DNA from: Alphaproteobacteria bacterium
Lineage (GTDB): Bacteria; Pseudomonadota; Alphaproteobacteria; UBA8366; GCA-2717185
Assembly: GCA_021774435.1 (NCBI GenBank)
Contig: JAJFJB010000478.1
Location: 1-60,063, forward strand
Reading direction: 5' to 3'
Length of the DNA: 60,063 nt
The notes under the pieces were generated by a model. That model was not told the origin of the DNA and ran no database searches. It saw nothing but the letters and a program-made list of their open reading frames with translations. Numbering within the stretch: the stretch's first letter is position 1; the number at the start of each line of letters is the position of its first letter. Made by a program: the position numbers and the translations under genes. Positions 12,814-46,684 of this stretch are shown piece after piece.

Positions 12814-13692
12814 ATGTCCCAGCTGGCAAACACCGTATTCTCAACCAAAGCGCATATTGTGGGCGACAGGAATGCCGTCGACCACGCGCCCAAGGCCCCT
12901 GTCGAAGAAGCCCTATCGACGGTCCTGGCCAATGACTGGATCAACGACGAATACAAGCATCTGGTCGTGACGGCCTCGCCGAAATCTCTGGCAGCCAAGC
13001 CTGGGCAATTCTTTCACTGGCTTTGCCCTTCGCCCGATGAAGGCGATTTGTGGCTGCGCCGGCCGCAAAGCATTTACCTCGTCGACAGAGAACGGGAACG
13101 GCTTGAGTTTCTGTACAAATGCGTTGGTCGCGGCACGAACGGCGCCGCGACTCTGACCCCGGGCGACACGTTCAATATGGTCGGTCCCTTGGGTGTCGGC
13201 TTCACTCTACAACCGGACTGGGAAAACATCGTCGTGCTGGGTCGAGGTGTCGGGCTCGCCACGCTGGCGCCAATCTCTCAACTCATCGCCGAAAACAATA
13301 TCGGCGCCACAGTCATCCTAAGCGCCCGCAGCCCCGAACTAGCAATGTCCGGCGACTTATTTGAGAAAGCGGGTGCGGAGGTTCTGACGGTTACGGACAC
13401 GGATGGCACCAGCGCGGTCGAAAACGTCGAAGGCATAATCGAAGACAGGGTTGTGCAAGGCCGCGCGGACGCCTTCTTCACTTGCGGGTCGAACCGGCTG
13501 TTCATGTTAATGAAGCGGCTCGGCGCGCAACACGGTATACCCGGCCAAGTGGCGATGGAACAGATTATGGCGTGCGGGCTTGGCCCTTGTTATGTCTGCG
13601 TCCGCACTTTCGTAATCGACGGTGAAAAAACGCTTAAGCGGGTTTGTATCGACGGACCCGTCTTTGACATGCAGGAGGCGATGGGATGGTAG
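12814..13692 (+). CDS. Dihydroorotate dehydrogenase electron-transfer subunit (PyrK-like)
   Basis: This is an FAD and 2Fe-2S ferredoxin-reductase-type protein of 292 residues. The FAD-binding RPQS motif is at residues 83-86, the NAD-binding GRGVGLATLAPI segment starts near 144, and the cluster cysteines are C254, C259, C262 and C278 in C-x4-C-x2-C-x15-C spacing, as in PyrK. The first 45 residues are an extension relative to ordinary PyrK. The gene overlaps the PyrD-like gene by seven bases, so the two proteins should form a complex that passes electrons between NAD(H) and the FMN of PyrD. Its position between two molybdenum hydroxylases suggests a catabolic role. Confidence 0.88.
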   Translation: MSQLANTVFSTKAHIVGDRNAVDHAPKAPVEEALSTVLANDWINDEYKHLVVTASPKSLAAKPGQFFHWLCPSPDEGDLWLRRPQSIYLVDRERERLEFLYKCVGRGTNGAATLTPGDTFNMVGPLGVGFTLQPDWENIVVLGRGVGLATLAPISQLIAENNIGATVILSARSPELAMSGDLFEKAGAEVLTVTDTDGTSAVENVEGIIEDRVVQGRADAFFTCGSNRLFMLMKRLGAQHGIPGQVAMEQIMACGLGPCYVCVRTFVIDGEKTLKRVCIDGPVFDMQEAMGW

Positions 13693-14630
13693 ATCTTTCG
13701 GTCAAAATCGGCGCTTTCGAGATGGCCAACCCAGTCATGCCAGGATCCGGTACATTTTCGCCCGAAATGGCGCAGGTCATCGATATTAATCGGCTCGGTG
13801 CGACTATGACGAAGACCGTTAGCCGAGAGCTTCGTGATGGCAATCCACCCCCACGCGTTGCCGAAGTCGAATGCGGTATGATCAATTGCATCGGTCTCCC
13901 CGGTAAAGGCATCGAATATTTCTTGAGTGATCTGTTGCCCGAGTATTTGCAATACAGCCCTCCCGTAATTGTCAGCATCACCTCGACGACTCAGGACGAT
14001 TTCGCGGCTATGGCGCGTGACGTTACGGTTCCCGGCGTGAAAGCGCTTGAGATCAACATCTCCTGTCCGACACGCGATCCAAATGGCGGCAATTTCGCAC
14101 TGCATGCCGAGCATACGGCGGACACGGTGCGCGGCGTCCGAGCAGCCACGGATCTTCCTATTTTCGTTAAACTGTCACCAAATGCGGGCGACATTGTCAG
14201 CATAGCGCGCGCTGCGGAAGAAGCGGGCGCCGATGCTCTGACGATCGCAAACACAATTCTGTCTATGCGGATCGACACAAACAGCTTCAGACCGTCGCTC
14301 GGCTTCAAAACCGGCGGCATGTCCGGCCCTGCCGTCAAACCCATCATCATGCGAATGGTCTACCAGGTCTCCAATGCGGTCTCGATTCCGATCATCGGCT
14401 GCGGCGGTATCGTGAAAGCCGAAGACGTTGTCGAATATATGCTGGCGGGTGCGAGCGCCGTACAAATCGGGTATGCCTCGTTTCGCAATCCGACCGCCAT
14501 GATTTCAATTATCGAAGACCTAAAGGAGTGGTGTGAGCGCCGTGGGATTGCCTGCGTCGCCGATCTGACGGGCGCGGTACAGGATGATTTGGAAACCGAC
14601 ACCTACATCGCCGCAGCGGCCGGCATCTGA
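13686..14630 (+). CDS. Class 1B dihydroorotate dehydrogenase-like protein (PyrD-like)
   Basis: This is an FMN-binding TIM barrel of 314 residues. It has the class 1 catalytic cysteine C127 in the NISCP motif, the FMN lysine K43 in TMTKTV, KLSPNAGDI, and the C-terminal phosphate-binding segment GCGGI to GASAVQIG. Together with the overlapping PyrK-like gene it matches the heteromeric NAD-dependent class 1B enzyme rather than the membrane class 2 enzyme usual in proteobacteria. It could oxidise dihydroorotate or reduce or oxidise a related dihydropyrimidine-type compound. The molybdenum hydroxylases on either side favour the latter, which is inference. Confidence 0.85.
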   Translation: MVDLSVKIGAFEMANPVMPGSGTFSPEMAQVIDINRLGATMTKTVSRELRDGNPPPRVAEVECGMINCIGLPGKGIEYFLSDLLPEYLQYSPPVIVSITSTTQDDFAAMARDVTVPGVKALEINISCPTRDPNGGNFALHAEHTADTVRGVRAATDLPIFVKLSPNAGDIVSIARAAEEAGADALTIANTILSMRIDTNSFRPSLGFKTGGMSGPAVKPIIMRMVYQVSNAVSIPIIGCGGIVKAEDVVEYMLAGASAVQIGYASFRNPTAMISIIEDLKEWCERRGIACVADLTGAVQDDLETDTYIAAAAGI

Positions 14631-14638
14631 GCCAAGCT

Positions 14639-16975
14639 TTGTGTGCCGCGCAAGATTCCAATGCTAATCGCCAGTATGTTGGCCAATCGATCCGCCGCAT
14701 CGAAGATCACCGCCTGCTGACTGGACGAGGCCGTTTCATTGCCGACCTGCCATTCGCGGCGACCTGCAATATGGCTGTTGTCCGGTCTGTCTATGCTTAT
14801 GCAGACATCATCGCAATTGAAACCGACGACGCGCGAACAATGCCCGGCGTACTAGGTATCTGGACCGGCCGAGACGTTAACGCCGACGAATTGGGTGGCA
14901 TCCCGTGGGAACGATTGCCACCAGCACCGCAAAGTGAGCCCCGCATTTCCGCGCCGTCGCCAGGCGACCCCACAATCGGGCAGCCGCAGCCGATCCTGCC
15001 CGAAACGAGGGTCCGGTATCTCGGGCAGCCCGTTGCCGTAATTGTCGCGGAGACCATAGCGCAGGCCAAGGATGCCGCAGATGTTGTTTCTATCGACTAC
15101 GAAGAACGCTCGCCAATAATTACCGTACGCGACGCGGTAGAAGCTGAGCCGCTATGGGAACAAGCGCCAGGCAATCTGTGTTTCAGAACCGATGCCGGTG
15201 ACCGGGAAGCAGTGGCGGAAGCCTTCGCACGGGCAGCCCATATTACCGTAATATCCGTCGACAATGAACGCCTTGTTCAAAATCCATTGGAAACGCGCGG
15301 CTATGTCGGTCAATACGACTCAAAGACTGAGCGCTACACATTACATGCGGCTGCCGGCAAACCACAGACGGTCGGGCGCGCGCTCGCCCGCGATATTTTC
15401 CATTTGCCGGAGGATCATGTCCGTGTGGTCACCAAGGATGTTGGCGGCGGGTTTGGAGCCAAGAACCCGCTCTATCCGGAACAGGCACTCGTGCTTTGGA
15501 CAGCCCGGAAGCTTGGCCGCCCCGTGCGCTGGCAGGCTGATCGAACCGAATCCTTCCTCTCCGATTACCAGGGCCGCGGACAAGCGACGGACGCCGAAGC
15601 GGCATTCGACGCGAGCGGCCGTATTCTAGCCCTCAGGGTCCGTGCACTAGCTGATTTGGGCGCGTTTCTAGGGCCGCGCGGTTCCACCGCAGCCAACATG
15701 TGGCGAATCATGGGCACCAGTGTCTACGATATTCCCCTTATCGATTTTGACCTTCGTGGCATCCATACCAACCGCATGCCGACCTGCCCATATCGGGGTG
15801 CGGGTGCTCCCGAAGCGGTGTTCGCTTTGGAGCGGCTGCTCGATACGGCTGCGCGGGAATTGGGTCTCACACCTACCGAGATTCGCCGCCGCAATCTCGT
15901 TCCAGCCTCAAAGATGCCTTATAAATCGGCAGCCCTTTCGACCTATGACAGCGGCGACTTCAGTGCGGCCATGGATGCAGCGGAGCGAATTGCCGACATC
16001 GGCGGCTTTGCGCAGCGCCGTACAGAAAGCGAAGCCAAGGGGCTCAAGCGTGGGCTCGGATACGGCAATCTTCTCGAAGCGTGCGGCGCCGGCATCGCCG
16101 ACCGGGCTGACATTTCCTGCACGCCTGAAGGTGATATCGTCGTGCGCATCGGCACTATGTCCAACGGACAGTCGCACGAGACCGTTTATGCGCAAATGCT
16201 CGCCGACCGGCTTGGCGTCGAATTGGCGCAAATCAAAATTATCCAGGGCGATACCAACGAGACACCGTGGGGCATGGGCACCGGCGCCTGCCGCTCCATG
16301 ACGATTGGCGGCAGCGCCTTGGTGCTCGCAGGCGACGCACTGATCGAAAACGGCCTCGGCATCGCCGCGGAACTTTTCGAAGCCGCACCGCAGGATATCG
16401 AATACGAAGCGGGTCAATATCGTATTCAAGGCACCGACCGTGTCCTCTCTTTTGCGGATATCGCGCAAGAAAAGAACCTCAAATCGACACATCATTACGA
16501 ACCTTTGAACAGCACTTACCCCAACGGCTGCCATATTGCCGAAGTAGAAATCGATCCGGAAACTGGCGTTGTTACCCTGTCGCGCTACAGCATGGCGCAG
16601 GATGTCGGCCGAGCACTCAACCCGATGGTCGTCGAAGGACAGCTGGCCGGCGGCGTCGCACAAGGGATTGGTCAGGCACTACTTGAACGCAACTATCACG
16701 ATCCGGAGTCCGGACAGTTACTGACGGGATCCTTCATGGATTGCGCCCTGCCCCGGGCAGACGATCTGCCGTTCTTCGCAACTGACATTTTAGAGGTCCC
16801 CTGCACGCACACGCCGACCGGTGTTAAATCTGTTGGCGAAGCAGGTCCGACGGCAGCGCCCGCCGCCGTAATTAATGCGATCGTCGACGCGCTTTCACCG
16901 CTCGGGGTTCGGCATATCCCCATGCCAGCGACGCCGGAAACCGTTTTCCGCGCCATACAAAATGCCGAGCCTTAG
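14639..16975 (+). CDS. Second molybdenum hydroxylase large subunit
   Basis: This is a xanthine dehydrogenase-family molybdopterin subunit, also 778 residues and a clear paralogue of the one at 9525. It has the hammerhead start SIRRIEDHRLLTGRGRF, GGGFGAK near residue 270, PYRGAGAPEAVF and the catalytic glutamate E734 in KSVGEAG. The CO-dehydrogenase active loop is absent. The only plausible start is TTG at 14639, eight bases after the PyrD-like stop, with no clear ribosome site. Coupled translation from upstream is likely. No iron-sulfur or FAD subunit gene adjoins it. The stop interlocks with that of the convergent CoxG-like gene (TTAG, 16972-16975). Confidence 0.88.
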   Translation: MCAAQDSNANRQYVGQSIRRIEDHRLLTGRGRFIADLPFAATCNMAVVRSVYAYADIIAIETDDARTMPGVLGIWTGRDVNADELGGIPWERLPPAPQSEPRISAPSPGDPTIGQPQPILPETRVRYLGQPVAVIVAETIAQAKDAADVVSIDYEERSPIITVRDAVEAEPLWEQAPGNLCFRTDAGDREAVAEAFARAAHITVISVDNERLVQNPLETRGYVGQYDSKTERYTLHAAAGKPQTVGRALARDIFHLPEDHVRVVTKDVGGGFGAKNPLYPEQALVLWTARKLGRPVRWQADRTESFLSDYQGRGQATDAEAAFDASGRILALRVRALADLGAFLGPRGSTAANMWRIMGTSVYDIPLIDFDLRGIHTNRMPTCPYRGAGAPEAVFALERLLDTAARELGLTPTEIRRRNLVPASKMPYKSAALSTYDSGDFSAAMDAAERIADIGGFAQRRTESEAKGLKRGLGYGNLLEACGAGIADRADISCTPEGDIVVRIGTMSNGQSHETVYAQMLADRLGVELAQIKIIQGDTNETPWGMGTGACRSMTIGGSALVLAGDALIENGLGIAAELFEAAPQDIEYEAGQYRIQGTDRVLSFADIAQEKNLKSTHHYEPLNSTYPNGCHIAEVEIDPETGVVTLSRYSMAQDVGRALNPMVVEGQLAGGVAQGIGQALLERNYHDPESGQLLTGSFMDCALPRADDLPFFATDILEVPCTHTPTGVKSVGEAGPTAAPAAVINAIVDALSPLGVRHIPMPATPETVFRAIQNAEP

Positions 16976-17577
16976 GACGCCGCAGAGCGACCTGTCAACA
17001 ACCTCAATACCGCATTCCAAAGAACCTTGAACATGAGCGATAGTCCCGAAACGGGTTTTACAGCTGCCGATGTGGATGTGGATGCGGCTTCACGTTCGGG
17101 CTCCGTTTCGACAGCGACGGCGGGAGCCATCGCGAGTTCCGCCTTGAGGCTCTCTGCGAATTGGCCAATGAGTTGCGCCGCAAGATCTTGCACCATGCCA
17201 ACGCCTCGCCCGTACTGGGCTACGGGACCTGACAACATCAAGTTGGTATGTATCAGCACCTTGGAGTGGCCGTCCGAGGGGTCGACGTGGAAATCAACGA
17301 CGGCGTTGGCGCCGCCACGTCCCTTGGCATCCTTGCCGTCCGCCTTGACCCGCGCTTTGAGTTCGGCATCGTCGACATCCTCAAAACGCGCTTGCCCCTT
17401 GAATGTCAGCGACACGGGACCAAGCCGCACCGCGACCTCTCCCTTGAACGTATTAATGTCGATGGCTTCCGTCAGTTTTGCGCCCGGCATACAAGGCGCA
17501 ATGCGCTCGATATCACGCAAGAGCACCCAGGTTTCATCGGGTGGCAACGGCACGTCGAACGAATTATCGAACTCCAA
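16972..17577 (-). CDS. SRPBCC / CoxG-like protein
   Basis: This protein of 201 residues has an N-terminal START/SRPBCC domain (about residues 1-145: MEFDNSFDVPLPPDETW, PGAKLTEAID, VRLGPVSLTFKGQARF, GRGVGMVQDLAAQLIG), like carbon monoxide dehydrogenase subunit G. A low-complexity linker and a hydrophobic C-terminal segment (LMFKVLWNAVLRLL) follow and may dock on the membrane. CoxG proteins anchor or mature molybdenum hydroxylases. The position beside two such enzymes fits that role, although it is on the opposite strand and presumably has its own promoter in 17578-17705. Confidence 0.85.
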   Translation of the reverse strand: MEFDNSFDVPLPPDETWVLLRDIERIAPCMPGAKLTEAIDINTFKGEVAVRLGPVSLTFKGQARFEDVDDAELKARVKADGKDAKGRGGANAVVDFHVDPSDGHSKVLIHTNLMLSGPVAQYGRGVGMVQDLAAQLIGQFAESLKAELAMAPAVAVETEPEREAASTSTSAAVKPVSGLSLMFKVLWNAVLRLLTGRSAAS

Positions 17578-19914: not shown

Positions 19915-20709
19915 ATGGCGACGATAGCCAGTATCGCAACGCAATCGACAACGGCCCCGGCGGGCATGCCGGAAAACGAATGGGCGGCCCGGTGCGACCT
20001 CGCCGCTGCCTACCGCCTCGCGGCACTCTATGGCTGGACAGACCTCAACAACACGCATTTCTCACTACGGGTGCCAGGCACGGAAAATCACTTCCTCATC
20101 AATCCGTTCGGCATGTTCTTCGATGAAATTACCGCCTCCTCGCTCATCAAGGTCGATGACAAGGGCAACGTGATCGGCGACAGCGACTACCCCGTCAATC
20201 CAGCGGGTTTTGTCATTCACGGCGCCGTCCATATGTCTTCGCCCGATCTGCATTGTGTGATCCATACGCATAGCCGGTTCGGCGCCGCGGTGGCGATGCA
20301 AAAACAAGGCCTGCTGCCGGCCAGCCAAAAAGCACTAACGGTGATGGGCTGGGTCGGCTATCACGATTTTGAGGGACCTGCCGTCGATGCCGGTGAACAA
20401 CCGCGCATCGTCAGCGACCTAAGTGACAAGCGCATCCTGATCCTGCGCAATCACGGGCTGCTCAGCGTCGGCAACACGGTTGGCGAAGCCTTCGTGTGGA
20501 TCTATCGGATCGAGACTGCCTGCCGATTGCAAATCGACGCCCTGTCCGGCGGCAGCGAGCTTCAGTCTCTGTCACAAGAAACGCAGGACAAATCCATCCA
20601 GATGGGCCTGAAGATGTACGCCAAGGGCGGGTTCATTGAAGTCGGCCGCGAATGGCCGGCCCTGCTGCGTCAACTTTCTAGGGCCCACATGGACGATTAC
20701 GCCCGATGA
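19915..20709 (+). CDS. Class II aldolase/adducin family protein
   Basis: This zinc-dependent aldolase or decarboxylase-type protein of 264 residues resembles the L-fuculose-phosphate aldolase fold. The metal histidines are readable as H117 and H119 (VIHTHSRFG) and H180 (RNHGLLS), with an acidic catalytic candidate in the FFDE loop near residue 70. A clear GGAGG precedes the ATG. It is the first rightward gene ahead of the grdC and grdA genes, 124 bases upstream of grdC, so a common transcript is possible. In that case it may prepare or process the substrate of the reductase. Close relatives in proteobacteria are mostly uncharacterised. Confidence 0.85.
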   Translation: MATIASIATQSTTAPAGMPENEWAARCDLAAAYRLAALYGWTDLNNTHFSLRVPGTENHFLINPFGMFFDEITASSLIKVDDKGNVIGDSDYPVNPAGFVIHGAVHMSSPDLHCVIHTHSRFGAAVAMQKQGLLPASQKALTVMGWVGYHDFEGPAVDAGEQPRIVSDLSDKRILILRNHGLLSVGNTVGEAFVWIYRIETACRLQIDALSGGSELQSLSQETQDKSIQMGLKMYAKGGFIEVGREWPALLRQLSRAHMDDYAR

Positions 20710-20833
20710 GAGCGAGCTGAATCAGAGACTAAAGCGCCGTTTCGGCGAGAAAGCGCCCGGAGGCTCTTGAAAAACGTCACCAAATCCCCTTTTCAGAGCG
20801 ACACCGAATTGTCAGCAGCGCGGGGGGTATGGA

Positions 20834-22321
20834 ATGCGGGGAACCGAGGGTAATATCGAGTGTGACAATCCCGTCATCCGCAATTGTTCGCACTGTCTCA
20901 TCCATGTCCCCGATCTCGTCCGGTATGGCTCCAAACCGCGGCGCGAGATTGCCAAGGATCCTGCGACACAGCGACACCTTTCTGACTCGCTGAGATCCTA
21001 TGCCGACGCCGTGAACTACCCACCCAACCAGACCGTAATCGGCAACCTTACGCCCGACGCACTGTCCGGTATCCCGCGCCCGTGGTTCGATGCGGGTGAA
21101 AAAGCAGTCCCATCAACGGGCCCCTTCGGCGAAATCGTCTCACAGGACGTTTTCTACGCGCTGCTCAAGGCAGCGAATGTTCTAAAGCCTTCTTTGGTCG
21201 AACTTGCCGCCGAAGGCCGTGAAACCTTGGAAGGCTGTCTGCAAGCACACCCCGTGTTTTCGAGCTTGGCAACTGTCGATTTCACGCCCTTGGAATCTCT
21301 GCAGGCGGAAATCAACACGGGTGGCGCGCTTGCACTGCGGTCGGGAACGGAACTACGCGGCTGCGTTCGCCGCGACGACCGTGCCGAGGGCCGCGAAGAC
21401 GAAAATCTCGATGCGCATACCTTGCTTGAGGCCCTGTGCACCAAGGCCTCCGGCGCGGTTGCCCTGCAGTGGCTGCTGCACCGCGAGGGGATCGATGCAG
21501 CGGAGATCGACTACGTAATCAGTTGCGGTGAAGAGGCGACGGGCGACCGATACCAGCGCGGCGGCGGCGGCATGGCAAAGAGCATCGCCGAGATGTGCGA
21601 CTGCACACGAGCGTCCGGGATGGACGTCAAAAATTTCTGCGCCGCACCCGCATCGGCCCTGGTTACAGCCGGCGCGCTCGTCAAGGCGGGGCTTTATCGG
21701 CGTGTCGCGGTCGTCGCGGGCGGGTCGCTGGCGAAGCTCGGCATGAAATTCCAGGCCTATCTGCGGCTCGGCATGCCGATGCTTGGCGACTGCCTCGGTG
21801 CCACTGCCTTTCTTGTCGCGCCGGACGATGGTGAAAGCCCTATACTGCATCTCGAACCCGGCAGTGTAGGGGTAGCCACCGTCGGCGCCAGTACATCCGA
21901 CGAGGCGGTATATCGCGACCTCATTCTTGCACCACTCAATGCCCTCGGCTTGACCATGGGCGATATCGATAAATTTGCACCGGAACTGCACAACCCCGAG
22001 ATCATGGAGCATTCCGGTTCCGGCGATGTCGTCCATAAGAATTATCGCCTGATCGCCGCAATGGCGGTGATGGCTGGCGAAATCGGTAAAGCGGATATGG
22101 AAACTTTCATAGCCCGAACCGGCATGACGGGTTTCGCGCCGCCCCAGGGTCATATACCGTCCGCCATTCCGTATATGGGACATGCGCTTGCCGCCATGCG
22201 GCGGGGCGAGCTGCACCGGGCAATGTTCCTGTGCAAGGCGAGCCTGTTCCTAAACCGGTTGACGGAGCTCTATGATGGCGTTTCATTCCTCCTCGAAGCG
22301 AACCCGAGGGCGGAAACCTGA
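20834..22321 (+). CDS. grdC: Glycine/sarcosine/betaine reductase component C, beta subunit
   Basis: This is a 495-residue protein matching GrdC. It shares the N-terminal NYPPNQTVIGNLTP block, the FGEIVSQDVFYALLK segment, GCVRRDD, the QRGGGGMAKSIAEM block and the cysteine-bearing FCAAPASAL (C269) of its thiolase/FabH-like fold. The C-terminal YKMIAA-like HKNYRLIAAMAV, FAPPQGHIPS and LFDGVSF-like YDGVSFLLE are also there. In clostridia, component C takes the carboxymethyl group reduced on selenoprotein A and releases an acyl product with help of GrdD. GrdD is not found in the window. The ATG at 20834 is the only start that preserves the conserved N-terminus. grdA follows after 19 bases. Confidence 0.9.
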   Translation: MRGTEGNIECDNPVIRNCSHCLIHVPDLVRYGSKPRREIAKDPATQRHLSDSLRSYADAVNYPPNQTVIGNLTPDALSGIPRPWFDAGEKAVPSTGPFGEIVSQDVFYALLKAANVLKPSLVELAAEGRETLEGCLQAHPVFSSLATVDFTPLESLQAEINTGGALALRSGTELRGCVRRDDRAEGREDENLDAHTLLEALCTKASGAVALQWLLHREGIDAAEIDYVISCGEEATGDRYQRGGGGMAKSIAEMCDCTRASGMDVKNFCAAPASALVTAGALVKAGLYRRVAVVAGGSLAKLGMKFQAYLRLGMPMLGDCLGATAFLVAPDDGESPILHLEPGSVGVATVGASTSDEAVYRDLILAPLNALGLTMGDIDKFAPELHNPEIMEHSGSGDVVHKNYRLIAAMAVMAGEIGKADMETFIARTGMTGFAPPQGHIPSAIPYMGHALAAMRRGELHRAMFLCKASLFLNRLTELYDGVSFLLEANPRAET

Positions 22322-22340
22322 ACTAAAAGGAAGCATTGCG

Positions 22341-22796
22341 ATGCTAAGCGGAAAAAAGGTAGCGGTATTTGGCGAACGCGACGATGTCAGCGGACTCGCC
22401 GTACGAAAATGTATCGAAGCGGCAGGTGGTGAGGTCGTCTACGAAGCGACGTCCTGCTTCGTCTGAACCGCCGCCGGCGCCGCAGGTCTTGCGGAGCAGG
22501 AGGAAGTCAAGAAGTTGGCCAAACGCTATGGTGCGGATGACCTCATCATCGTGTTCGGCCTGAACGAACCCGCCAATTTGCGGATCATGGCCGCCACCTT
22601 CAAGGACGGCGACCCCAGCTATGCCGGCGCGCTTGGCGGCATCGCACTGGGGCTGGCGAGCTATCACATCTTCGAGCTTAAAGATGAAATTCCGCCTAAA
22701 GTCTGGGACAGCGAAATGGCGATCAAGGAACTTCAGATCGAAGACGAACTTATCGAGCGCATCTGCGGTATCATGCAGGAGATCCGCGGCGACTAA
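22341..22796 (+). CDS. grdA: Glycine/sarcosine/betaine reductase selenoprotein A (Sec at codon 42)
   Basis: This 151-residue selenoprotein is read through an in-frame UGA at 22464-22466. The sequence around it is the GrdA signature: C39-F-V-U42 followed by TAAGAAGL, a C-x2-U redox pair. It is preceded by the SGKKVAVFGERDD flavodoxin-like start and followed by IIVFGLNEPANLRIMAATFKDGDPSYAGALGG. GrdA carries the carboxymethyl-selenoether intermediate between components B and C and is re-reduced by thioredoxin. Length matches the family (about 155). An AAAGGAAG site precedes the ATG. A SECIS-like hairpin lies directly after the UGA. Conservation on both sides of the codon argues strongly against a pseudogene. 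Confidence 0.93.
22464..22497 (+). promoter_or_regulatory. Sec UGA codon and SECIS-like hairpin of grdA
   Basis: The UGA is at 22464-22466. Bases 22480-22484 (CCGCA) pair perfectly with 22490-22494 (TGCGG) around a GGTCT loop, and two more pairs (22477-22478 with 22496-22497) follow after one mismatch. The octamer GCAGGTCT occupies positions 19-26 counted from the U of UGA. From memory, the E. coli fdhF SECIS has the same octamer at the same distance, and its G23 and U24 contact SelB. The hairpin is part of the coding sequence, as usual in bacteria. Confidence 0.85.
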
Positions 22797-22801
22797 CCAC
22801 T

Positions 22802-24115
22802 CTATTCAAAAACACATTGCGCGGAAATTTCCGCTTCCAGCGCTTCCAGCGCCTTTTCCACGAGTGCCCGACGAATCGCCTTTTCTTCCGACGCCGACTT
22901 GTCCGGATCGCCGAGAGGATGTGGAATCGCGACACTGGGCACAATCCGGTTGGCTCCAACGGTCTGCGAAATCGGAATGATCGAGCAGATATGCGCCGTC
23001 GGCAGCCCCGCCCTTTCCAATTCCTTGACGATCGTTGCCCCGCAACGCGTGCAGGTGCCTCACGTCGAGGTTAGGATGACGGCCTGGACACCGACATTCA
23101 CCAGCTTGGCCGCTATCTCCGCGCCAAACCCGACCGCGCGCTCTACCGACGTCGCGTTGCCGACAGTGGCGTAATAAGTCTCATGCAGGCAGCCAATCCG
23201 CCCCTCGCGTTCCAAATCCCGAACAACGTCGAGCGGCAGCACACGGTTTGGGTCTTCGTTCGCATAAGTCGGATCGTAACCGCCATGCACGCTTTGAAAC
23301 GTTTCGGACGAAGCTTCCCGCAACCCTGCAAGCGAATATTCTCCATAGCGGCTCGCATTGGCGGACTCGATTCTGTCCGGATTGCCGCGCGGCACGACGC
23401 CGCCGCTGGTGACCAACGCCAGCGTGGCACGCGACATATCGGCCACAGGCGACGCCGGGGGCACGCGGTCAAACACAGGCATCGCATATTCGGTCGCGGG
23501 GTCATTACCGCTTACCTTGCGGAGCAGCATTTCAACGGCGCGTTGCGCGCCCGTCGTCTCCGCAAAGAAATTTTGACGCAGGCCACGCGGAATGGTTTCG
23601 TCCTTCTCCGCCGAAATTGCCGCACCCGCAACAAGTTTACGGCCGACGCGCACTATACGGGACACCGCGTCTCGCATACCCATCACATCCGCCGCCGCGA
23701 TTGCGATCGTCACATCTCGGCGAAAGAGTTCCACGGCCGGGTTTTCGGGGTAGAGAGCGGTCACAGCAGGAGCATCTAGGCGTTCAGCGACGGCACGGCA
23801 GACCGCCGCACACCACATACCATAACGCCCGGCATTGAAAGCCGGACCGGCGATAACAAGGTCTATCCCCGCACCACACCGTTCCGTGACGAGCGCAACA
23901 ATCTCTGCAGCAGCGTCCTCCGGTTCATCGGCCTTGTAGTTGTCCCCCATGACGACGGTGCCGACAATTTCAATCTCGGGCGCAAGTGATTGTATCAACG
24001 CGCCCGGTCCCTTCGCCCCGTCGAACCAAAGCGGGGACGCGTCTGCTTTCTCCTCGCCGCCAAGCCCACCGAAAAACTGGTTGAGGCAATGAACCGTTCG
24101 CACCTTCTGCGCCAC
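22802..24115 (-). CDS. grdB: Glycine/sarcosine/betaine reductase selenoprotein B (Sec at codon 352)
   Basis: This is the component B selenoprotein (GrdB/GrdF/GrdH type), 437 residues when the UGA at 23060-23062 is read as selenocysteine. The codon sits in the diagnostic TST-U-GTCTRCGATIVKE context near the C-terminus, and the reading frame continues 85 conserved residues to a TAG at 22802. It starts with VRTVHCLNQFFGGLGGEE and contains VAGPAFNAGRYG-like and LVTSGGVVPRGNP motifs. The GTG at 24115 lies one base after the grdE stop, behind GGGAGGT, and fits the family's N-terminus. Component B binds the amine substrate and presents it to SeCys. Whether that is glycine, sarcosine, betaine or another amine cannot be read. 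Confidence 0.93.
23033..23062 (-). promoter_or_regulatory. Sec UGA codon and SECIS-like hairpin of grdB
   Basis: The UGA is at 23062-23060 on the minus strand. Fifteen bases into the following coding sequence, CGTTG (23047-23043) pairs perfectly with CAACG (23037-23033) around a CGGGG loop. The loop begins 21 bases from the U of UGA and has G at its second and third positions, which satisfies the general bacterial SECIS consensus as I know it. The structure need not resemble that of grdA for SelB to use it. Confidence 0.78.
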
Positions 24116-24116
24116 G

Positions 24117-25355
24117 TCACACCTCCCGGCAACTGAGGTGGCTAAAGCCAAGTTCGTTCGTCGCGCCGATTATGGCCTGTAGTTCGACTTCAAGTGAGCC
24201 GTCTTCACGCAAGGTATGGGGATAGCCGCCGGCGAGGCGTGATACATCGGGGAGAGGCCCAATTGTCTTCGCCAGAGCCGGCAAAACGATGCGTTCATTC
24301 GCGTTCCCGGTCGAGACGATTGCATTCGCTTCGGCCACCGTATCGGCGAGCGATTGGGACCCGCCGTCATTTCCGGCGAATTCGTCGGTGATGGCGACGG
24401 TAACGATCCCGGATTTTTCCAACCTTTGCAGGAGCATCATCAGGTCCGCATCCGGGTTGCCGAACCCTTCCTTGCTGACAATAGCGCCGCTCGCCTGCAT
24501 TTCCGTCACCAGCGTTACGGCAGCTTCCGCCGATCGCTCTTTCTCTCCCAGCCGAACCGCTGCATTGGTGATCACGATCCCGGCGAAATTCCAGCGGTTG
24601 CCGTGTCCGCGCAACAGTTCGGCGATGATGGGATTGTTCTGATGATGAAACGTCGTGGTTTTATCGCACGCGCTGACGCAATTGCCGGACACGATTCCGT
24701 TGTCGTAGACCTGTCCCGGATTGGCTAAGACCGGCAAACCATCCTTAGCATCGCGGCCAAAGACATAGGTGTCGTGCAACAAGCCCTGACTGAGGACCAT
24801 GTAGACATATGCTACACGCGGGAGTCTGGGGTCGACCGGACTTTCCTCAAGGGCAATCTCTTCGACAGTATCGGGTTCGGCGTCAATGCAGACCGCCGCG
24901 ACGAACTCTGCAGCATTCAGCCCCGCGGCGCGAACCGCAGCCTCGTGCTCGTGGGGACCAAGACCATGCGCGGCTTCGATTCGCAACACAAAGAGCGGCA
25001 TCCGCGAGAACGGTGTGTAGTCGGCGCCCCTGCCCGACATGTCGATAATGCCTTCCTGAAACCCCACTATGGGGCCACAAGTAACAACTGCCACATCTTC
25101 CAGAATGCCCAGGACGCCCATTCCCTGTATCGAGCCGGTTTTTTTTATGCGCGGCTGAACGACATCTTTGACGCAGACAATGCGCGTGCTGTCGCCAGGA
25201 CGAGCCATTTCAATTGAAACATTTCCGAGGCGATCGTCGGCCATCAGTTGCGCCCGCAGCGTACCAGCGTCGATGGTCAAATGCCCAGCGTCTATACGGC
25301 TCTCGGCACCAAGGCTGACGGACAAAACCTTATGCCTGTGCATCGTCAACGACAT
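24117..25355 (-). CDS. grdE: Glycine/sarcosine/betaine reductase component B proprotein (pyruvoyl type)
   Basis: This 412-residue proprotein of component B belongs to the GrdE/GrdG/GrdI family. It shows ARPGDSTRIVCVKDVVQPR, CGPIVGFQEGIIDMSG, LSQGLLHDTYVFG and the processing motif SGNCVSACDK, followed by TTFHHQNNPII. In characterised enzymes the chain is cut between the Asn and Cys of this motif, here N225 and C226. The cysteine becomes an N-terminal pyruvoyl group that forms a Schiff base with the substrate amine. An AGGTGAG precedes the ATG. It is 35 bases downstream of the LLM gene and one base upstream of the grdB start codon, so LLM-grdE-grdB look like one operon. Confidence 0.92.
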   Translation of the reverse strand: MSLTMHRHKVLSVSLGAESRIDAGHLTIDAGTLRAQLMADDRLGNVSIEMARPGDSTRIVCVKDVVQPRIKKTGSIQGMGVLGILEDVAVVTCGPIVGFQEGIIDMSGRGADYTPFSRMPLFVLRIEAAHGLGPHEHEAAVRAAGLNAAEFVAAVCIDAEPDTVEEIALEESPVDPRLPRVAYVYMVLSQGLLHDTYVFGRDAKDGLPVLANPGQVYDNGIVSGNCVSACDKTTTFHHQNNPIIAELLRGHGNRWNFAGIVITNAAVRLGEKERSAEAAVTLVTEMQASGAIVSKEGFGNPDADLMMLLQRLEKSGIVTVAITDEFAGNDGGSQSLADTVAEANAIVSTGNANERIVLPALAKTIGPLPDVSRLAGGYPHTLREDGSLEVELQAIIGATNELGFSHLSCREV

Positions 25356-25390
25356 ACTTGGCTCACCTAAAGTGTGATTGAAAGCGGGCG

Positions 25391-26581
25391 TTACTCCGCC
25401 GCCTCGCCCTTTTTGCGGTCCTGGTAGCGGTCGATTTCCGTCTGAATGGCCTGCGCCGCCTGACCGACAAACGCATCGCGGTTCTTGTGGCTGTAATCGT
25501 AACTAATATCGCGCAAGCGGTTGCTGTTCTGGAAATGCGGGAACACATAGCGCGAGAGTAATTCGTAGCTTTCTTTGGTATTTTCCCAGCTGGCCCAGTT
25601 GTGGGCGAGCTGCATCAACGCACCGAAGCCCCCAGCGCCTTCCAAGAGGGTTTCGATATAGGTGATGGCGTCATCCGGCGTGCCGATCAGCGCCATCTTG
25701 TTCTCGGTTAGATAGGTATAGGGATCGTCGATATCGGCCGGAACAATTGGGAACGTCGCGATCTCGCGGAAATATTTAGCCCATTCCTCAAGCCCGAATT
25801 GGACATTCTCTCGCGCTTTCTCGCGTGTCTCCGCGACATGCATCAGCGTCACCAGGCGCCATTTGTCACGGGTGACGGTCTGGCCATTCTCCGCCGCCGC
25901 CTCTTCGCACATGCGCCAATTGTTCGCGTGCGCAGCCAGAGCATCGTCGCTGGTGCCGCCGATCGAGAGCATCCCGATGCCATGCTTGCCCGCCGCAAGC
26001 GCACCAGACGGCGAGCGCGCGCAGGCCACCGCCATCTCGACGCGGGGCTGCTGGAAGGATGGGATTTGAATGCGCGCATCCTGGAGATGGAACCAGTCCG
26101 TCTTCATGTTGACCATCTCGCCATCGAGTAATTTGACAACGACATCAAGAGACTCGTTCATCATACGGCGCTGTTCCGCCGGGTCGATGCCCATGCGGTA
26201 GGCGTCACCTGTCAGCGCACCGGGACCAACGCCGAACATGAACCGGCCACCCGTCATATGATCGAGTTGTGTCACGCGCCCGGCGACGGTAAACGGGTTA
26301 TGATATGGCAACGAGACGACGCCGGTACCGAGCCGAATATGCTTGGTGCGTTCCGCAGCACCGGCGATGAACATTTCTGGACAGGCGATAATCTCCATAC
26401 CACCAGAATGGTGCTCGCCGATCCAGGCTTCGTGATAGCCCAACCCATCGAGATGCTCGAGCAACAGCATGTCCCGGCGCATCGCCTGGGTCGGATTCTC
26501 GTTCATAGCATGGAACGGTGCTAGAAATATGCCAAATTTCAAATAGTTATTCGGAATCAGTGAAAGCGCGGACGTGGTCAT
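25391..26581 (-). CDS. LLM-class flavin-dependent oxidoreductase
   Basis: This is a bacterial luciferase-like flavoprotein of 396 residues, the long FMN-type subgroup (limonene or alkanal monooxygenase-like). Motifs are LKFGIFLAPFH, GYHEAWIGEHHSGG, RLGTGVVSLPYHNPF, GGRFMFGVGPG and the C-terminal GTPDDAITYIETLL. It would use reduced FMN and O2, or act as an oxidoreductase, on a small organic substrate. It lies 35 bases upstream of grdE on the same strand, so it may be co-transcribed with the reductase genes. An oxygen-using flavoenzyme beside an anaerobe-type reductase is unusual and may hint at the substrate. Confidence 0.87.
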   Translation of the reverse strand: MTTSALSLIPNNYLKFGIFLAPFHAMNENPTQAMRRDMLLLEHLDGLGYHEAWIGEHHSGGMEIIACPEMFIAGAAERTKHIRLGTGVVSLPYHNPFTVAGRVTQLDHMTGGRFMFGVGPGALTGDAYRMGIDPAEQRRMMNESLDVVVKLLDGEMVNMKTDWFHLQDARIQIPSFQQPRVEMAVACARSPSGALAAGKHGIGMLSIGGTSDDALAAHANNWRMCEEAAAENGQTVTRDKWRLVTLMHVAETREKARENVQFGLEEWAKYFREIATFPIVPADIDDPYTYLTENKMALIGTPDDAITYIETLLEGAGGFGALMQLAHNWASWENTKESYELLSRYVFPHFQNSNRLRDISYDYSHKNRDAFVGQAAQAIQTEIDRYQDRKKGEAAE

Positions 26582-29973: not shown

Positions 29974-30746
29974 CCTGGATCTTCGACCAAGCCTGGATCG
30001 GCATCGCGATCATACCGATGCTAATCCTCATATACTCGTTTCGGATACTCCGCGAGTATGAACGCGGCGTCATATTTCTCTTGGGCCGGTTCTGGAAGGT
30101 AAAGGGTCCGGGTCTCATCATTGTCATCCCCATTATTCAAACGATCGAGCGGGTCGATTTGCGAACGCGCGTCTTGGACGTACCGGAACAAGACGTCATT
30201 TCGCGGGACAACGTGTCGGTCAAGGTCAACGCTGTCGTCTATTTTCGGGTTATCGACGCCGAAAAAGCGATCATCCAGGTTGAAGATTTTATGATCGCCA
30301 CCAGCCAACTTGCACAAACCACGCTGCGCTCCGTGCTCGGGCAGCACGAACTTGACGAGATGCTGGCGGAGCGGGAACGGCTCAACGCAGATATTCAGCG
30401 TTCGCTCGACGAGCAAACGGACGCGTGGGGTATAAAGGTCTCAAATGTGGAGCTAAAACATGTCGATCTCGACGAGACCATGATCCGGGCAATCGCCAAA
30501 CAAGCGGAGGCGGAGCGCACACGTCGCGCTAAAATCATCGACGCCGAAGGCGAGCAGCAAGCCGCGACGAAGTTTCTCGAAGGTGCCGAAATCCTTTCCA
30601 ACAACAGTCAGGCAATGCAACTACGTTACCTGACTGCACTCCAGGAAATTGCCGGAGAAAAAAGCTCAACGATCATCTTCCCCTTTCCGTTGGAACTGAT
30701 CAACGCGTTCACAGGCATGCCAGGCAAACGTCCGGGGGACGATTGA
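29970..30746 (+). CDS. Slipin (SPFH/stomatin-like membrane protein)
   Basis: This SPFH-domain protein has 258 residues, with one N-terminal membrane segment ([18 protein letters not shown]) followed directly by the stomatin core: [49 protein letters not shown]. The coiled-coil region carries the typical [19 protein letters not shown], and the [10 protein letters not shown] tail closes the protein. It forms oligomers in the cytoplasmic membrane and is partnered with NfeD. The ATG at 29970 inside the end of nfeD is the natural start. Its stop overlaps the next gene's start codon (TGATG), so three genes are translationally linked. Confidence 0.9.
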
Positions 30747-31687
30747 TGCGAAGGATACTCGTAACGGGATCACTCGGCCAAATAGGGTCGGAATTGGTGC
30801 CAGCGCTGCGTGAACGGCACGGCGCTCAGTCCGTTGTCGCGTCCTACCACCGCACAAAGCCCGACGTTGACGATGGGCTTTCGGAATATCTCGACTGCAC
30901 CGACCCACAACAGATCGAAGATGTTGTACAGCGTTACGATATCGGCGTGATCTACCATCTGGCCGCCCTGCTGTCCGCGGTGGCGGAAGCGAAACCGCAG
31001 GCCGCATGGGACGTCAATATGGGAAGCCTGCATAACGTATTGGAAGTGGCGCGCCGTAACGGCTGCGCGCTGTTCTTTCCCAGCTCGATTGGCGCCTTTG
31101 GTCCCAACACCCCGAAACAGGGCACGCCGCAGGATACGATACAGCGGCCCAACACGATATACGGCGTGACCAAGGTGAGTGGCGAATTGCTCTGCGACTA
31201 TTACACAACGCGCTACGGCATCGATACGCGGGGGCTACGGTTCCCCGGCCTTATATCCCATGTCACGGTGCCAGGCGGGGGCACGACGGATTATGCGGTG
31301 GATATCTTCTATCAAGCGATCCAGCATCGGCGCTATACCTGCTTCCTGCGGCCCGACACCAGGCTCGACATGATGTACATGCCGGACGCGGTTCGCGCGG
31401 CCTGCGACGTGATGGAAACCGACCCCACCGCCTTAAAGCACCGCAACGCCTTCAATGTCACGGCAATGAGTATCACACCAGAAGAACTCGCCGTGGAAAT
31501 CCGCAACCACATACCCAACTTCGTCATGGAATATGAGGTCGATCCGGTACGTCAGGCGATTGCCGACTCATGGCCACAATCGATGGATGACAGTGAGGCG
31601 CGCGCGCAATGGCGATGGTCCCCTGAATTCGACCTCTCCCGAATGACGGCAGAGATGCTAAAAAAACTAAGAATTAAGCTCACGTAA
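30746..31687 (+). CDS. NAD-dependent L-threonine 3-dehydrogenase, epimerase type
   Basis: This short-chain extended-SDR protein has 313 residues and resembles bacterial epimerase-type threonine dehydrogenases. It has the Rossmann motif VTGSLGQIGSE, the HLAALLSAVAE strand, the active-site serine in PSSIGAFGP (around S113-S114), and the Y139-x3-K143 catalytic pair in IYGVTK. It would oxidise L-threonine to 2-amino-3-oxobutyrate with NAD. The next gene encodes the enzyme expected to cleave that product, which supports the call. Its ATG overlaps the slipin stop, an odd partner for a metabolic gene. Confidence 0.85.
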   Translation: MRRILVTGSLGQIGSELVPALRERHGAQSVVASYHRTKPDVDDGLSEYLDCTDPQQIEDVVQRYDIGVIYHLAALLSAVAEAKPQAAWDVNMGSLHNVLEVARRNGCALFFPSSIGAFGPNTPKQGTPQDTIQRPNTIYGVTKVSGELLCDYYTTRYGIDTRGLRFPGLISHVTVPGGGTTDYAVDIFYQAIQHRRYTCFLRPDTRLDMMYMPDAVRAACDVMETDPTALKHRNAFNVTAMSITPEELAVEIRNHIPNFVMEYEVDPVRQAIADSWPQSMDDSEARAQWRWSPEFDLSRMTAEMLKKLRIKLT

Positions 31688-31697
31688 AGGACAGAAC

Positions 31698-32924
31698 ATG
31701 CCCTATGACCGGATCGAGGGAATACTGGCAGCTGAGCTTACAACACTTTCGGAGACAGGGCGCCGGAAAGGCGCGGAAACGGTATTTGATGGCATCGTTG
31801 AACCAGAAGGTGGGAAAGGCCCTCGCTATAGGATAGCGGGCGAAGACGACAGGGCATTCCTGCGAATGAACGCCAACGGCTATCTCGGCATGGCGAGACA
31901 GCCTAGCGTTATCGCCGCCGAAGAGGCGGCAGTCCGGCATTTTGGCGCTGGTCCCGGGGCGGTTCGCTTTATCAGCGGCACCTGGACACCGCATGTCGAG
32001 CTCGAAAACAGGATCGCCAATTTCCATGGCCGCGAGGCCGCGATGATTTTCAGTTCCGCCTATGCCACGATCATGGGACTGTTGCCGCCATTAATCGACG
32101 ACAACACCGTGGTTATCAGCGACGCGCTTAATCATAACTGCATCATAAACGCGGTCCGACTGGCGCAGCCCAAAGAAAAACGCGTTTACCCACACCTCGA
32201 CATGGGCGCGCTCGAAACCGAGCTCACGAACGCCGCAATATCCTGCGACCGAGCCATTATCGTGACCGACGGCGTTTTCAGCATGCGCGGCGATCACGCG
32301 CCCCTGAGGGCGATAATGGCACTCGCTCAGCGCTATGATGCACTTTACGATCAAAACGTCATGGTGATCGTGGACGACTCGCACGGCGTGGGCGCTTTCG
32401 GCGCGACGGGGCGCGGAACCGAGGAAATCGAACACAGCGAACCGGTTGACTTGCTTGTCGGCACGCTTGGCAAGGCATTCGGCGTCAATGGCGGTTACGT
32501 CACAGCAAGCCGTACTATGATCGATTACCTACGGGAAACATCTCCCTTCTATATTTATTCCAACCCCATCACTCCCGGCGAGGCCGCAGCCGCCAAGGCT
32601 GCTATTGACCTGCTCGACAGTGCGTCAGGGGTCGCGTTGCTCGACCATCTACGTTCCATGATGGAACGGTTCCGATCTGGGTTGACAGAAATCGGGTTCG
32701 AGTCTGTTGCCGGGGCGCACCCCGTCATTCCCTTGATGGTTCGGGATTCAGAGCGCACCGCGGATTTGGTGCGGCATTTGAAACAGTGCGGCATATTGGC
32801 AACCGGGCTCGGCTACCCGGTCGTGCCGCGCGGCGATGAAGAAATACGGTTTCAGATTTCCGCCGACCACACGGCCGTCGATATCGATGAAGTGCTTGCC
32901 GCCTTGAAGTCGTTCAATATCTAG
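31698..32924 (+). CDS. 2-amino-3-ketobutyrate CoA ligase-like alpha-oxoamine synthase
   Basis: This PLP enzyme of the alpha-oxoamine synthase group has 408 residues. The PLP lysine is K259 in GTLGKAFGVNGG, with H229 in DDSHGVGAFG, H99 in GTWTPHVELE, and the catalytic loop SDALNHNCII. With the threonine dehydrogenase ten bases upstream, the likely reaction is cleavage of 2-amino-3-oxobutyrate with CoA to glycine and acetyl-CoA. Its family also contains 8-amino-7-oxononanoate and 5-aminolevulinate synthases, which the context makes less likely. The N-terminal 35 residues are longer than in E. coli Kbl. Its stop interlocks with that of the convergent gene (CTAG at 32921-32924). Confidence 0.82.
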   Translation: MPYDRIEGILAAELTTLSETGRRKGAETVFDGIVEPEGGKGPRYRIAGEDDRAFLRMNANGYLGMARQPSVIAAEEAAVRHFGAGPGAVRFISGTWTPHVELENRIANFHGREAAMIFSSAYATIMGLLPPLIDDNTVVISDALNHNCIINAVRLAQPKEKRVYPHLDMGALETELTNAAISCDRAIIVTDGVFSMRGDHAPLRAIMALAQRYDALYDQNVMVIVDDSHGVGAFGATGRGTEEIEHSEPVDLLVGTLGKAFGVNGGYVTASRTMIDYLRETSPFYIYSNPITPGEAAAAKAAIDLLDSASGVALLDHLRSMMERFRSGLTEIGFESVAGAHPVIPLMVRDSERTADLVRHLKQCGILATGLGYPVVPRGDEEIRFQISADHTAVDIDEVLAALKSFNI

Positions 32925-45667: not shown

Positions 45668-46684
45668 ATGTACCATGTCTATATCAGTGTTTCGGGGGAT
45701 GACCGGATCGCCCGCTTCACGATGAATCCTGAAACAGGTGCGCTCATCCCCGGCGACGATATCGCGCTATCCGGTAGGCCCGCCTATGCCACGGTCAGCC
45801 CGAATGGACAGTTCATGCATGTCGCGCGCAAAGGGTCGTTACAGATCACAAGTTTCGCTATCGAAACCAGCAGCGGGGACCTTACAGAGATCGGCACGAT
45901 CCCCATTGGCGCCGATCCGGCCTATGTTTCAACTGACAAGACCGGCCGTTACCTGTTCTCCGCATCCTATTTCGACGGCATAACGGCGGTGCATGGGATT
46001 GGGGAAAACGGTGCCGTACAGGAAAAGCCAATCGAGTGGCTTGCGACGGGCATGCGCGCGCATTGCATTGAATCCGATCCGACGAACCGGTTCGTCTTTG
46101 TTCCGCACATCTTTCGAGAGGACGCGCCAAACACGACATTTCAGTTCCGTTTCGACGAAACGTCGGGTGCGTTGACGCCCAACACACCGGACCGGTGCGA
46201 CCCGCCCGGACCCGACGGGCCACGCCATTTTTGCTTTCACCCGAATATACCCATCGTCTATTTCTCAAACGAACAGGGCTGCAGCATTGGCACTTATACA
46301 TTGGATGTGGAAGCGGGCACTCTGTCTCATATCCAAACAAAATCAACGCTGCCGGCTGGCTGGTCGGGAGACAGCAAATGTTCACAAATTCGTATGACGC
46401 CCGATGGCCGATTTCTCTATGCGCCCAATAGGGGACACGACAGTATTGCCGAATTCGCGGTTGAAGCGGACGGCACCCTACGCTGGCTTGGCTACGTGCC
46501 GGCGGAAAAGATACCACGCGCCTTCCAGATCGACCCGGCGGGACGATATCTTCTATCCGCCGGTCACGGGTCCGGCCGCCTCGGCATCTTTCGAATAGAC
46601 CAAGAGACGGGACGGCTGGAACGCCGCTCGACCCATCCGCTTGGCAAATTACCGATGTGGATTACAATCCTGCCGGTGAATTAG
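45668..46684 (+). CDS. Lactonase family beta-propeller (6-phosphogluconolactonase-like)
   Basis: This seven-bladed propeller protein of the YbhE type has 338 residues. Repeated blades are visible as YATVSPNGQFMHVA, YVSTDKTGRYLFSASY, GPRHFCFHPNIPIVYFSNE, IRMTPDGRFLYAPNRGHDSIAEF and FQIDPAGRYLLSAGHGSGRL. Relatives hydrolyse lactones such as 6-phosphogluconolactone or muconolactone-type rings. There is no signal peptide. Following an isomerase-like gene, a role in a ring-cleavage or lactone step is plausible. Its stop codon interlocks with that of the convergent cytochrome gene (TTAG at 46681-46684). Confidence 0.85.
   Translation: MYHVYISVSGDDRIARFTMNPETGALIPGDDIALSGRPAYATVSPNGQFMHVARKGSLQITSFAIETSSGDLTEIGTIPIGADPAYVSTDKTGRYLFSASYFDGITAVHGIGENGAVQEKPIEWLATGMRAHCIESDPTNRFVFVPHIFREDAPNTTFQFRFDETSGALTPNTPDRCDPPGPDGPRHFCFHPNIPIVYFSNEQGCSIGTYTLDVEAGTLSHIQTKSTLPAGWSGDSKCSQIRMTPDGRFLYAPNRGHDSIAEFAVEADGTLRWLGYVPAEKIPRAFQIDPAGRYLLSAGHGSGRLGIFRIDQETGRLERRSTHPLGKLPMWITILPVN

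Follow-up and report, generated by a model that had tools for sequence, protein, structure and literature searches.

The DNA window considered here, 60,063 nucleotides of contig JAJFJB010000478.1 from an alphaproteobacterial assembly (GCA_021774435.1), carries at positions 20710-25390 a cluster of four genes of the glycine/sarcosine/betaine reductase (Grd) system, in which grdC and grdA on the forward strand converge tail to tail with grdB and grdE on the reverse strand (Table 1). An initial annotation of the sequence had placed the four genes in this arrangement and had read them as a selenocysteine (Sec)-dependent Grd cluster. Profile searches bear out both statements: each protein scores above the cut-off of a Grd family, and the two in-frame UGA codons are present, the one in grdB being followed by a selenocysteine insertion sequence (SECIS). 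Judged by their sequence motifs, the four genes are true members of the Grd superfamily, with the CxxU arrangement in GrdA, the UxxC arrangement in GrdB, the Asn-Cys motif in GrdE and a GrdC that is likewise recognized. The SGNCVSAC sequence of GrdE occurs in 117 of 120 proteins among the matches listed, the window's own included. The frames are open when TGA is read as Sec, although the start codon of grdB, which falls inside the overlap with grdE, is uncertain. Sec is predicted at residue 42 of GrdA and, counting from the TTG at 24151, at residue 364 of GrdB. Because differences from the nearest relative (locus L017) at third codon positions (0.48-0.57) exceed those at first (0.14-0.29) and second (0.07-0.17) positions, the four frames fit the action of purifying selection.

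Table 1. Features of the Grd cluster and of its insertion site, in window coordinates.
Feature	Position	Strand	Evidence
Class II aldolase gene, native left flank	19915..20709	+	PF00596 158.2 bits; aligned stretches 77-82% identical to same-genus genomes
Inserted Grd island	20710..25390		Flanking native genes convergent; site empty in G413, G414 and G415
grdC, component C beta-type subunit, GDRY type	20834..22321	+	NF040746 536.5 bits (cut-off 450)
grdA, selenoprotein A, CFVU motif, UGA at 22464-22466	22341..22796	+	NF040748 147.3 bits (cut-off 130)
Hairpin after the grdA UGA, weak SECIS candidate	22464..22510	+	Fold -18.7 kcal/mol, z only -1.01
grdB, selenoprotein B, UxxC motif STUGTCTRC, UGA at 23062-23060	22802..24151	-	PF07355 444.7 bits (cut-off 22); TIGR01918 549.3 bits (cut-off 65.45)
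SECIS_4 element (RF01990), directly downstream of the grdB UGA	23022..23059	-	Rfam 45.9 bits (gathering 38)
grdE, component B proprotein, SGNCVSACDK	24117..25355	-	PF09338 484.1 bits (cut-off 22.2)
Luciferase-like monooxygenase (LLM) gene, native right flank	25391..26581	-	PF00296 140.8 bits; 81-84% DNA identity to same-genus genomes

The cluster sits exactly between the aldolase and LLM genes as a clean 4.7-kb insertion, a site that the initial annotation had not recognized. In all three same-genus genomes (G413, G414 and G415) these two genes are adjacent, their aligned stretches lying 44, 86 and 86 bases apart, respectively, with 9 bases between the stop codons in G413. Of 43 genomes of the order and 385 of the class (own genome included in each set), the window's own is the only one in which profile PF09338 exceeds its cut-off; two further genomes of the order give weak matches of 20.1 bits. 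Since the site is empty in 3/3 same-genus genomes and PF09338 is confined to one genome of the order and class, it is likely that the cluster was acquired by transfer from another species, as the initial annotation had suggested; loss from all the other genomes would be a less simple explanation. Measured per kilobase, the GC content is 0.57-0.62 in the island, slightly more than in most of the flanks (0.51-0.59). No transposase or integrase is found among the island's four genes, repeats within 20650-25450 are only short and imperfect, and among the plasmid records of the searched collection no GrdE exceeds 47% identity. A chimera with a Firmicute sequence, which the initial annotation had named as a possible pitfall, is ruled out by the native flanks with the empty site and by the trees described below.

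The SECIS_4 element after the grdB UGA recurs in all six of the relatives' Grd loci that were scanned. After the grdA UGA, an Rfam search returned zero matches, even at E values up to 1, and the hairpin at this position folds hardly better than shuffled sequence. The same assembly contains selA (528.8 bits) and after it, where the contig ends, an open reading frame (ORF) that was recognized by eye as presumably the start of selB; the end of selB lies on another contig, both selB and selD being split by contig ends. A SelD fragment (G000 contig C325, locus L012 1-594, minus strand) exceeds its cut-off, and a tRNA-Sec gene (selC) with anticodon UCA is present. With selA, selB, selC and selD all found, as the initial annotation had proposed to check, the genome is predicted to be one that decodes Sec. 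The SelD of this genome is apparently itself a selenoprotein, its motif HGGGUGCK holding an in-frame UGA.

In its known form, glycine reductase works anaerobically and conserves energy as ATP by way of acetyl phosphate. GrdD, the alpha subunit of component C, is the one tied to acetyl phosphate in known versions and carries a decisive cysteine. Protein C reportedly takes up an acetyl group and breaks down acetyl phosphate in the presence of arsenate (Stadtman 1989). The initial annotation listed grdD among the genes to search for and overlooked its absence from the cluster: neither the cluster nor the window's own assembly gives a match above the cut-off of the GrdD model (NF040747, cut-off 350), the best being a partial match of 25.7 bits, and the classical acetyl-phosphate-forming complex with GrdD is accordingly not found in this assembly. 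GrdD is also without a match above cut-off in 13 of the 18 genomes of related loci (L017-L026, L028, L029 and L076); the control genomes within these 18 exceed the cut-off in four of five cases, and the fifth has two fragments at contig edges. The GrdC proteins that occur without GrdD form a distinct type, with GDRY instead of GDMN, and no GrdD is shown at any of the 11 GDRY loci. Six GrdC columns change together with the absence of GrdD (11 versus 47 rows). In the window's GrdC the type residues are R239-Y240, the alignment points to a predicted active-site Cys269 and a conserved His440, and structure prediction gives a thiolase-superfamily fold with an active-site cysteine. This modelled fold would not distinguish coenzyme A (CoA) from acyl carrier protein or phosphate as the acceptor. 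As single sequences, GrdB and GrdC found no match in the PDB at E 0.001. Clustering of the flanking ORFs from the loci of 13 relatives and a 28-kb stretch of the window revealed no set of non-Grd genes in more than four loci, and those of the smaller sets that were annotated include no shared partner gene in place of GrdD. The LLM gene beside grdC in L017 is not similar to that of the window at the threshold used. At loci L018, L021 and L022 the stretch covered contains a GrdE-GrdB pair but neither grdA nor grdC, and no GrdD was found in their genomes. Around this pair, L020 and L022 share five gene families, including a CDP-alcohol phosphatidyltransferase, unlike the other loci.

In a concatenated GrdB and GrdE tree of 36 rows, the window falls into a 12-row clade with support of 100/100. 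One half of this clade consists of the window, L017, L018, L019, L025 and L076 (100/98), and the other of five rows labelled Thermodesulfobacteriota and one labelled Pseudomonadota (100/99). The trees thereby refine the view of the initial annotation that the Grd system is best described in Firmicutes, which holds for the classical form, whereas the present form is a separate clade outside that phylum. Those hosts of the window's six-row subclade that carry a label are Pseudomonadota, Planctomycetota and Myxococcota and, since it spans several labelled phyla, the Grd phylogeny departs from that of the hosts. A heme-copper oxidase (PF00115) was found in 6 of the 24 genomes searched, which are exactly those of this subclade; the eight remaining GrdD-less genomes and the ten GrdD-type genomes gave none. 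In the window, as the initial annotation had remarked, the surroundings of the cluster hold oxygen-using enzymes, with TauD, LLM and molybdenum hydroxylase genes nearby. Some of the bins may be mixtures; for the window the matter is settled by its flanks, and for L017 by a single contig of 2,499,363 bases that holds both the cluster and an oxidase gene. The tail-to-tail order is common to the window, L017, L019, L023, L024, L025 and L076, and to the part of L026 that its contig covers; in L020 the order is the same with the pairs 5.5 kb apart, and the stretches covered for L018, L021 and L022 contain the E-B pair alone. Homologues of GrdE and GrdC with an organism name are few among the matches listed and come mostly from metagenome-assembled genomes (MAGs) of Alphaproteobacteria and Gammaproteobacteria. 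The GrdB tree was built from 43 of 82 extracted rows and the GrdC tree from 61 of 67, with rows shorter than 400 residues dropped and six over-long rows cut to their last 505 residues, so that L036, L053 and L095 are less than 36% filled.

A change in GrdB accompanies these differences. The CGD cysteine is lost in 12/12 rows of the clade, as well as in L028, whose genome is without GrdD, and in L085, and it is kept in L029, L075 and 66/66 other rows. Locus L085 (Halanaerobiaceae) combines a GDRY-type GrdC and a GrdA with the GrdB and GrdE of the Halanaerobiales branch and has no GrdD in its stretch. Because L085 groups among the Halanaerobiales in the concatenated tree, the cysteine was probably lost twice, each time together with a GrdD-less component C. 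The same locus suggests that the C-A and B-E pairs can have separate histories, moving independently and adapting to each other, since its GDRY GrdC is joined to GrdB and GrdE of Halanaerobiales type. Loci L029 and L075 likewise have a GDRY GrdC and stand outside the 12-row B+E clade.

Taken as a whole, the locus is read here as a four-gene enzyme of the glycine reductase type, with predicted Sec and with no GrdD found, which was likely acquired by transfer, probably reduces glycine and would probably pass the acetyl group from GrdC to CoA and not to phosphate; a probability of roughly 0.5 is assigned to this reading, which concerns a variant form of a known enzyme and not a new kind. In the proposed mechanism, GrdE would cleave itself at Asn225-Cys226 to create the substrate-binding carbonyl, the selenol of GrdB would take up the substrate carbon and hand it to GrdA as a Se-carboxymethyl group, and GrdA would give rise to an acetyl thioester on Cys269 of GrdC. 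Up to acetyl-GrdC these steps would follow the classical scheme, as outlined in the available excerpt of PMC13188914 (the papers cited here and below are all represented by excerpts) and in general knowledge of the enzyme. Given that no GrdD was found and that GrdC has a thiolase-type fold, the acetyl group would have to leave by another route, most simply by transfer to a thiol, for which CoA is the likeliest candidate. The product would then reach central metabolism in the form of acetyl-CoA, no ATP being formed directly, and the reductase may run while the cell respires oxygen. It can be proposed further, at a tentative level and as a rather doubtful extension, that this lineage left the Stickland world by dropping the phosphate subunit, re-tooling GrdC toward CoA and spreading by transfer among oxygen-respiring bacteria of several phyla, where it would serve as an assimilatory, ATP-independent route from glycine to acetyl-CoA with two selenoproteins.

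Several observations weigh against the main reading. The choice of CoA as acceptor draws on a predicted fold and on absences, and the genomes in question are mostly metagenome bins, the window's own being 95.6% complete and 6.3% contaminated in 527 contigs. Two of the 13 GrdD-less relatives (L028 and L029) fall outside the 12-row clade or are missing from the tree. Because some genomes without PF00115 likewise harbor GrdD-less clusters, the loss of GrdD is not tied to oxygen. In the GrdA tree the GrdD-less rows are not all on one side (two changes, with long branches for L029, L075 and L085), which counts against one clean joint history of the sequences. To these are added the points on acetate kinase, on a PlsX-like protein and on the GrdB motifs given below with the alternatives that they favor.

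It is quite possible, although not the preferred view, that the enzyme serves a facultative anaerobe as a conventional electron sink and works only without oxygen, the oxidases beside it being without further meaning. The sister subclade, five Thermodesulfobacteriota and one Pseudomonadota, sits in genomes without PF00115, and the authors of PMC10059138 read the Grd operon of Shewanella sp. MTB7 as such a sink, though that operon contains grdD. Against this stands the exact match between the six-row subclade and the six genomes with an oxidase, whose labelled hosts belong to at least three phyla, an argument that bears on habitat and not on when the enzyme runs.

An unlikely alternative to the delivery of acetyl to CoA is that acetyl phosphate is still made, by GrdC alone or with a borrowed phosphate acyltransferase of the PlsX or another type, so that only a gene was swapped. 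The ORF behind the 25.7-bit match in the window's own genome, which we take by eye to be PlsX-like and which adjoins a KAS III-like ORF, might stand in for GrdD. Weak matches of the same sort to the GrdD model occur in 7 of 14 control genomes, however, and so look like housekeeping genes. Acetate kinase (TIGR00016) exceeds its cut-off in 10/10 GrdD-type genomes and in 6 of the 14 GrdD-less ones, among them G002 and G013 of the oxidase subclade, which leaves room for acetyl phosphate; within that subclade, no acetate kinase was detected in G001, G003, G009 or the window's own genome. The own genome thus fits a product that is not cashed via acetyl phosphate, a fit that is weaker for the whole clade. 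Acetyl phosphate is named as the product in PMC13188914 and PMC9469722, whereas the joint change of six GrdC columns and one GrdB cysteine with the absence of GrdD points beyond a simple exchange of genes.

Similarly improbable is a reduction of another substrate (sarcosine, betaine or a different alpha-substituted acid) as the cause of the changes in GrdB. The window's GrdB misses the glycine model TIGR01917 (522.7 versus 602.2 bits) and stays below the models for sarcosine GrdF (NF040794, 552.5 versus 800 bits) and betaine GrdH (NF040795, 460.4 versus 775 bits), and its CGD cysteine is kept in none of the 12 clade rows and in all rows outside the GrdD-less set. A motif that runs from YxN to TxGNxTxV and includes a loop separating glycine from sarcosine enzymes is described for GrdB in PMC9751293. 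This glycine motif is not fully present, Cys22 replacing the tyrosine, Met68 the CGD cysteine and a valine the alanine before HGG, which is a further point against a plain glycine enzyme. On the other hand, HGGYDP-x8-RVLPLD and the loop TVGNATSV match the motif, and the loop reads GNAT, of the glycine-type GNxT, and not GTGT as in the annotated sarcosine GrdF reference L114. From these sequence signatures, glycine is the most likely substrate, and the new amine substrate considered by the initial annotation is so far not supported. Public names for these proteins (P0020, P0127 and others) are inconsistent and include beta-aspartyl-peptidase, betaine reductase, sarcosine reductase and glycine reductase; annotation searches by name will therefore miss the clade or assign an unproven substrate. 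The last alternative, an assembly chimera or dead genes, is very improbable and largely refuted already: the bin is 6.3% contaminated and, at 7.3 Mb, larger than three same-genus bins (4.8-6.3 Mb), yet both flanks share 77-84% DNA identity with the same-genus genomes around an empty site, the frames are open with a third-position bias, and L017 carries its cluster on a single long contig.

The system can be set beside several known ones. It shares with the clostridial and synergistetes GrdABCDE systems the GrdA, GrdB, GrdC and GrdE families, both Sec positions and the SGNCVSAC site of GrdE, and differs from them in having no GrdD found, a GDRY GrdC, a GrdB lacking the CGD cysteine, an arrangement in two converging pairs in place of one direction and an assembly with heme-copper oxidases. 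The GrdEBCA clusters of Lost City MAGs, for which the excerpt of PMC9469722 makes no remark on GrdD, and loci L029 and L075 have the same four genes, with GrdD neither named nor seen in the locus; unlike the window, L029 and L075 have a one-direction order and a GrdB that keeps the CGD cysteine. Grd systems in Pseudomonadota are also represented by the operon of Shewanella sp. MTB7, which its authors consider transferred (PMC10059138), and by the Photobacterium locus L115. The former differs from the window by its grdD, and L115 by a GrdD (tblastn) and a non-GDRY GrdC, grouping with Halanaerobiales rows in the concatenated tree. In the reductive glycine pathway of Desulfovibrio desulfuricans (PMC7547702), glycine is likewise reduced toward acetyl-CoA for assimilation, by an enzyme that, unlike the window's, has alpha and beta subunits of component C and proceeds via acetyl phosphate. 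Fluoroacetate reductase FarE (NF053623) is a distant GrdE relative, the window's GrdE scoring 110.3 bits against its cut-off of 675. In 2006, Alphaproteobacteria were described with one selenoprotein family (PMC1794560). Neither a Grd system in an alphaproteobacterium nor a discussion of GrdD loss was found in a search of an open-access library, judged from excerpts of the papers cited above and of PMC2398784, PMC8124441, PMC12827605, PMC12674515 and PMC1088965, subscription papers lying outside this scope.

Beyond the cluster, an epimerase gene and an aminotransferase gene (30743-31687 and 31698-32924) stand side by side some 5 kb away from the island, and the same pair adjoins grdC in L023 (13996-14952 and 12708-14030); the empty-site relatives keep at least the epimerase region nearby. 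Two large subunits of molybdenum hydroxylases are encoded at 9525-11861 and 14639-16975, with a dihydroorotate-dehydrogenase-like pair between them (12814-13692 and 13686-14630) and a CoxG-like gene after them (16972-17577). A 966-residue open frame at 46681-49581 on the minus strand has no Pfam match at E 1e-10.

A clade that lacks the phosphate subunit, and of which one branch coincides with the oxidase-bearing genomes of the set searched, would imply that glycine reduction is separable from the step that yields ATP and that automated annotation may be wrong in crediting these bacteria with acetyl phosphate and Stickland fermentation. Whether phosphate or CoA is the acceptor is directly testable with the four proteins. 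In addition, two oxygen-sensitive selenoproteins may then work in respiring cells.

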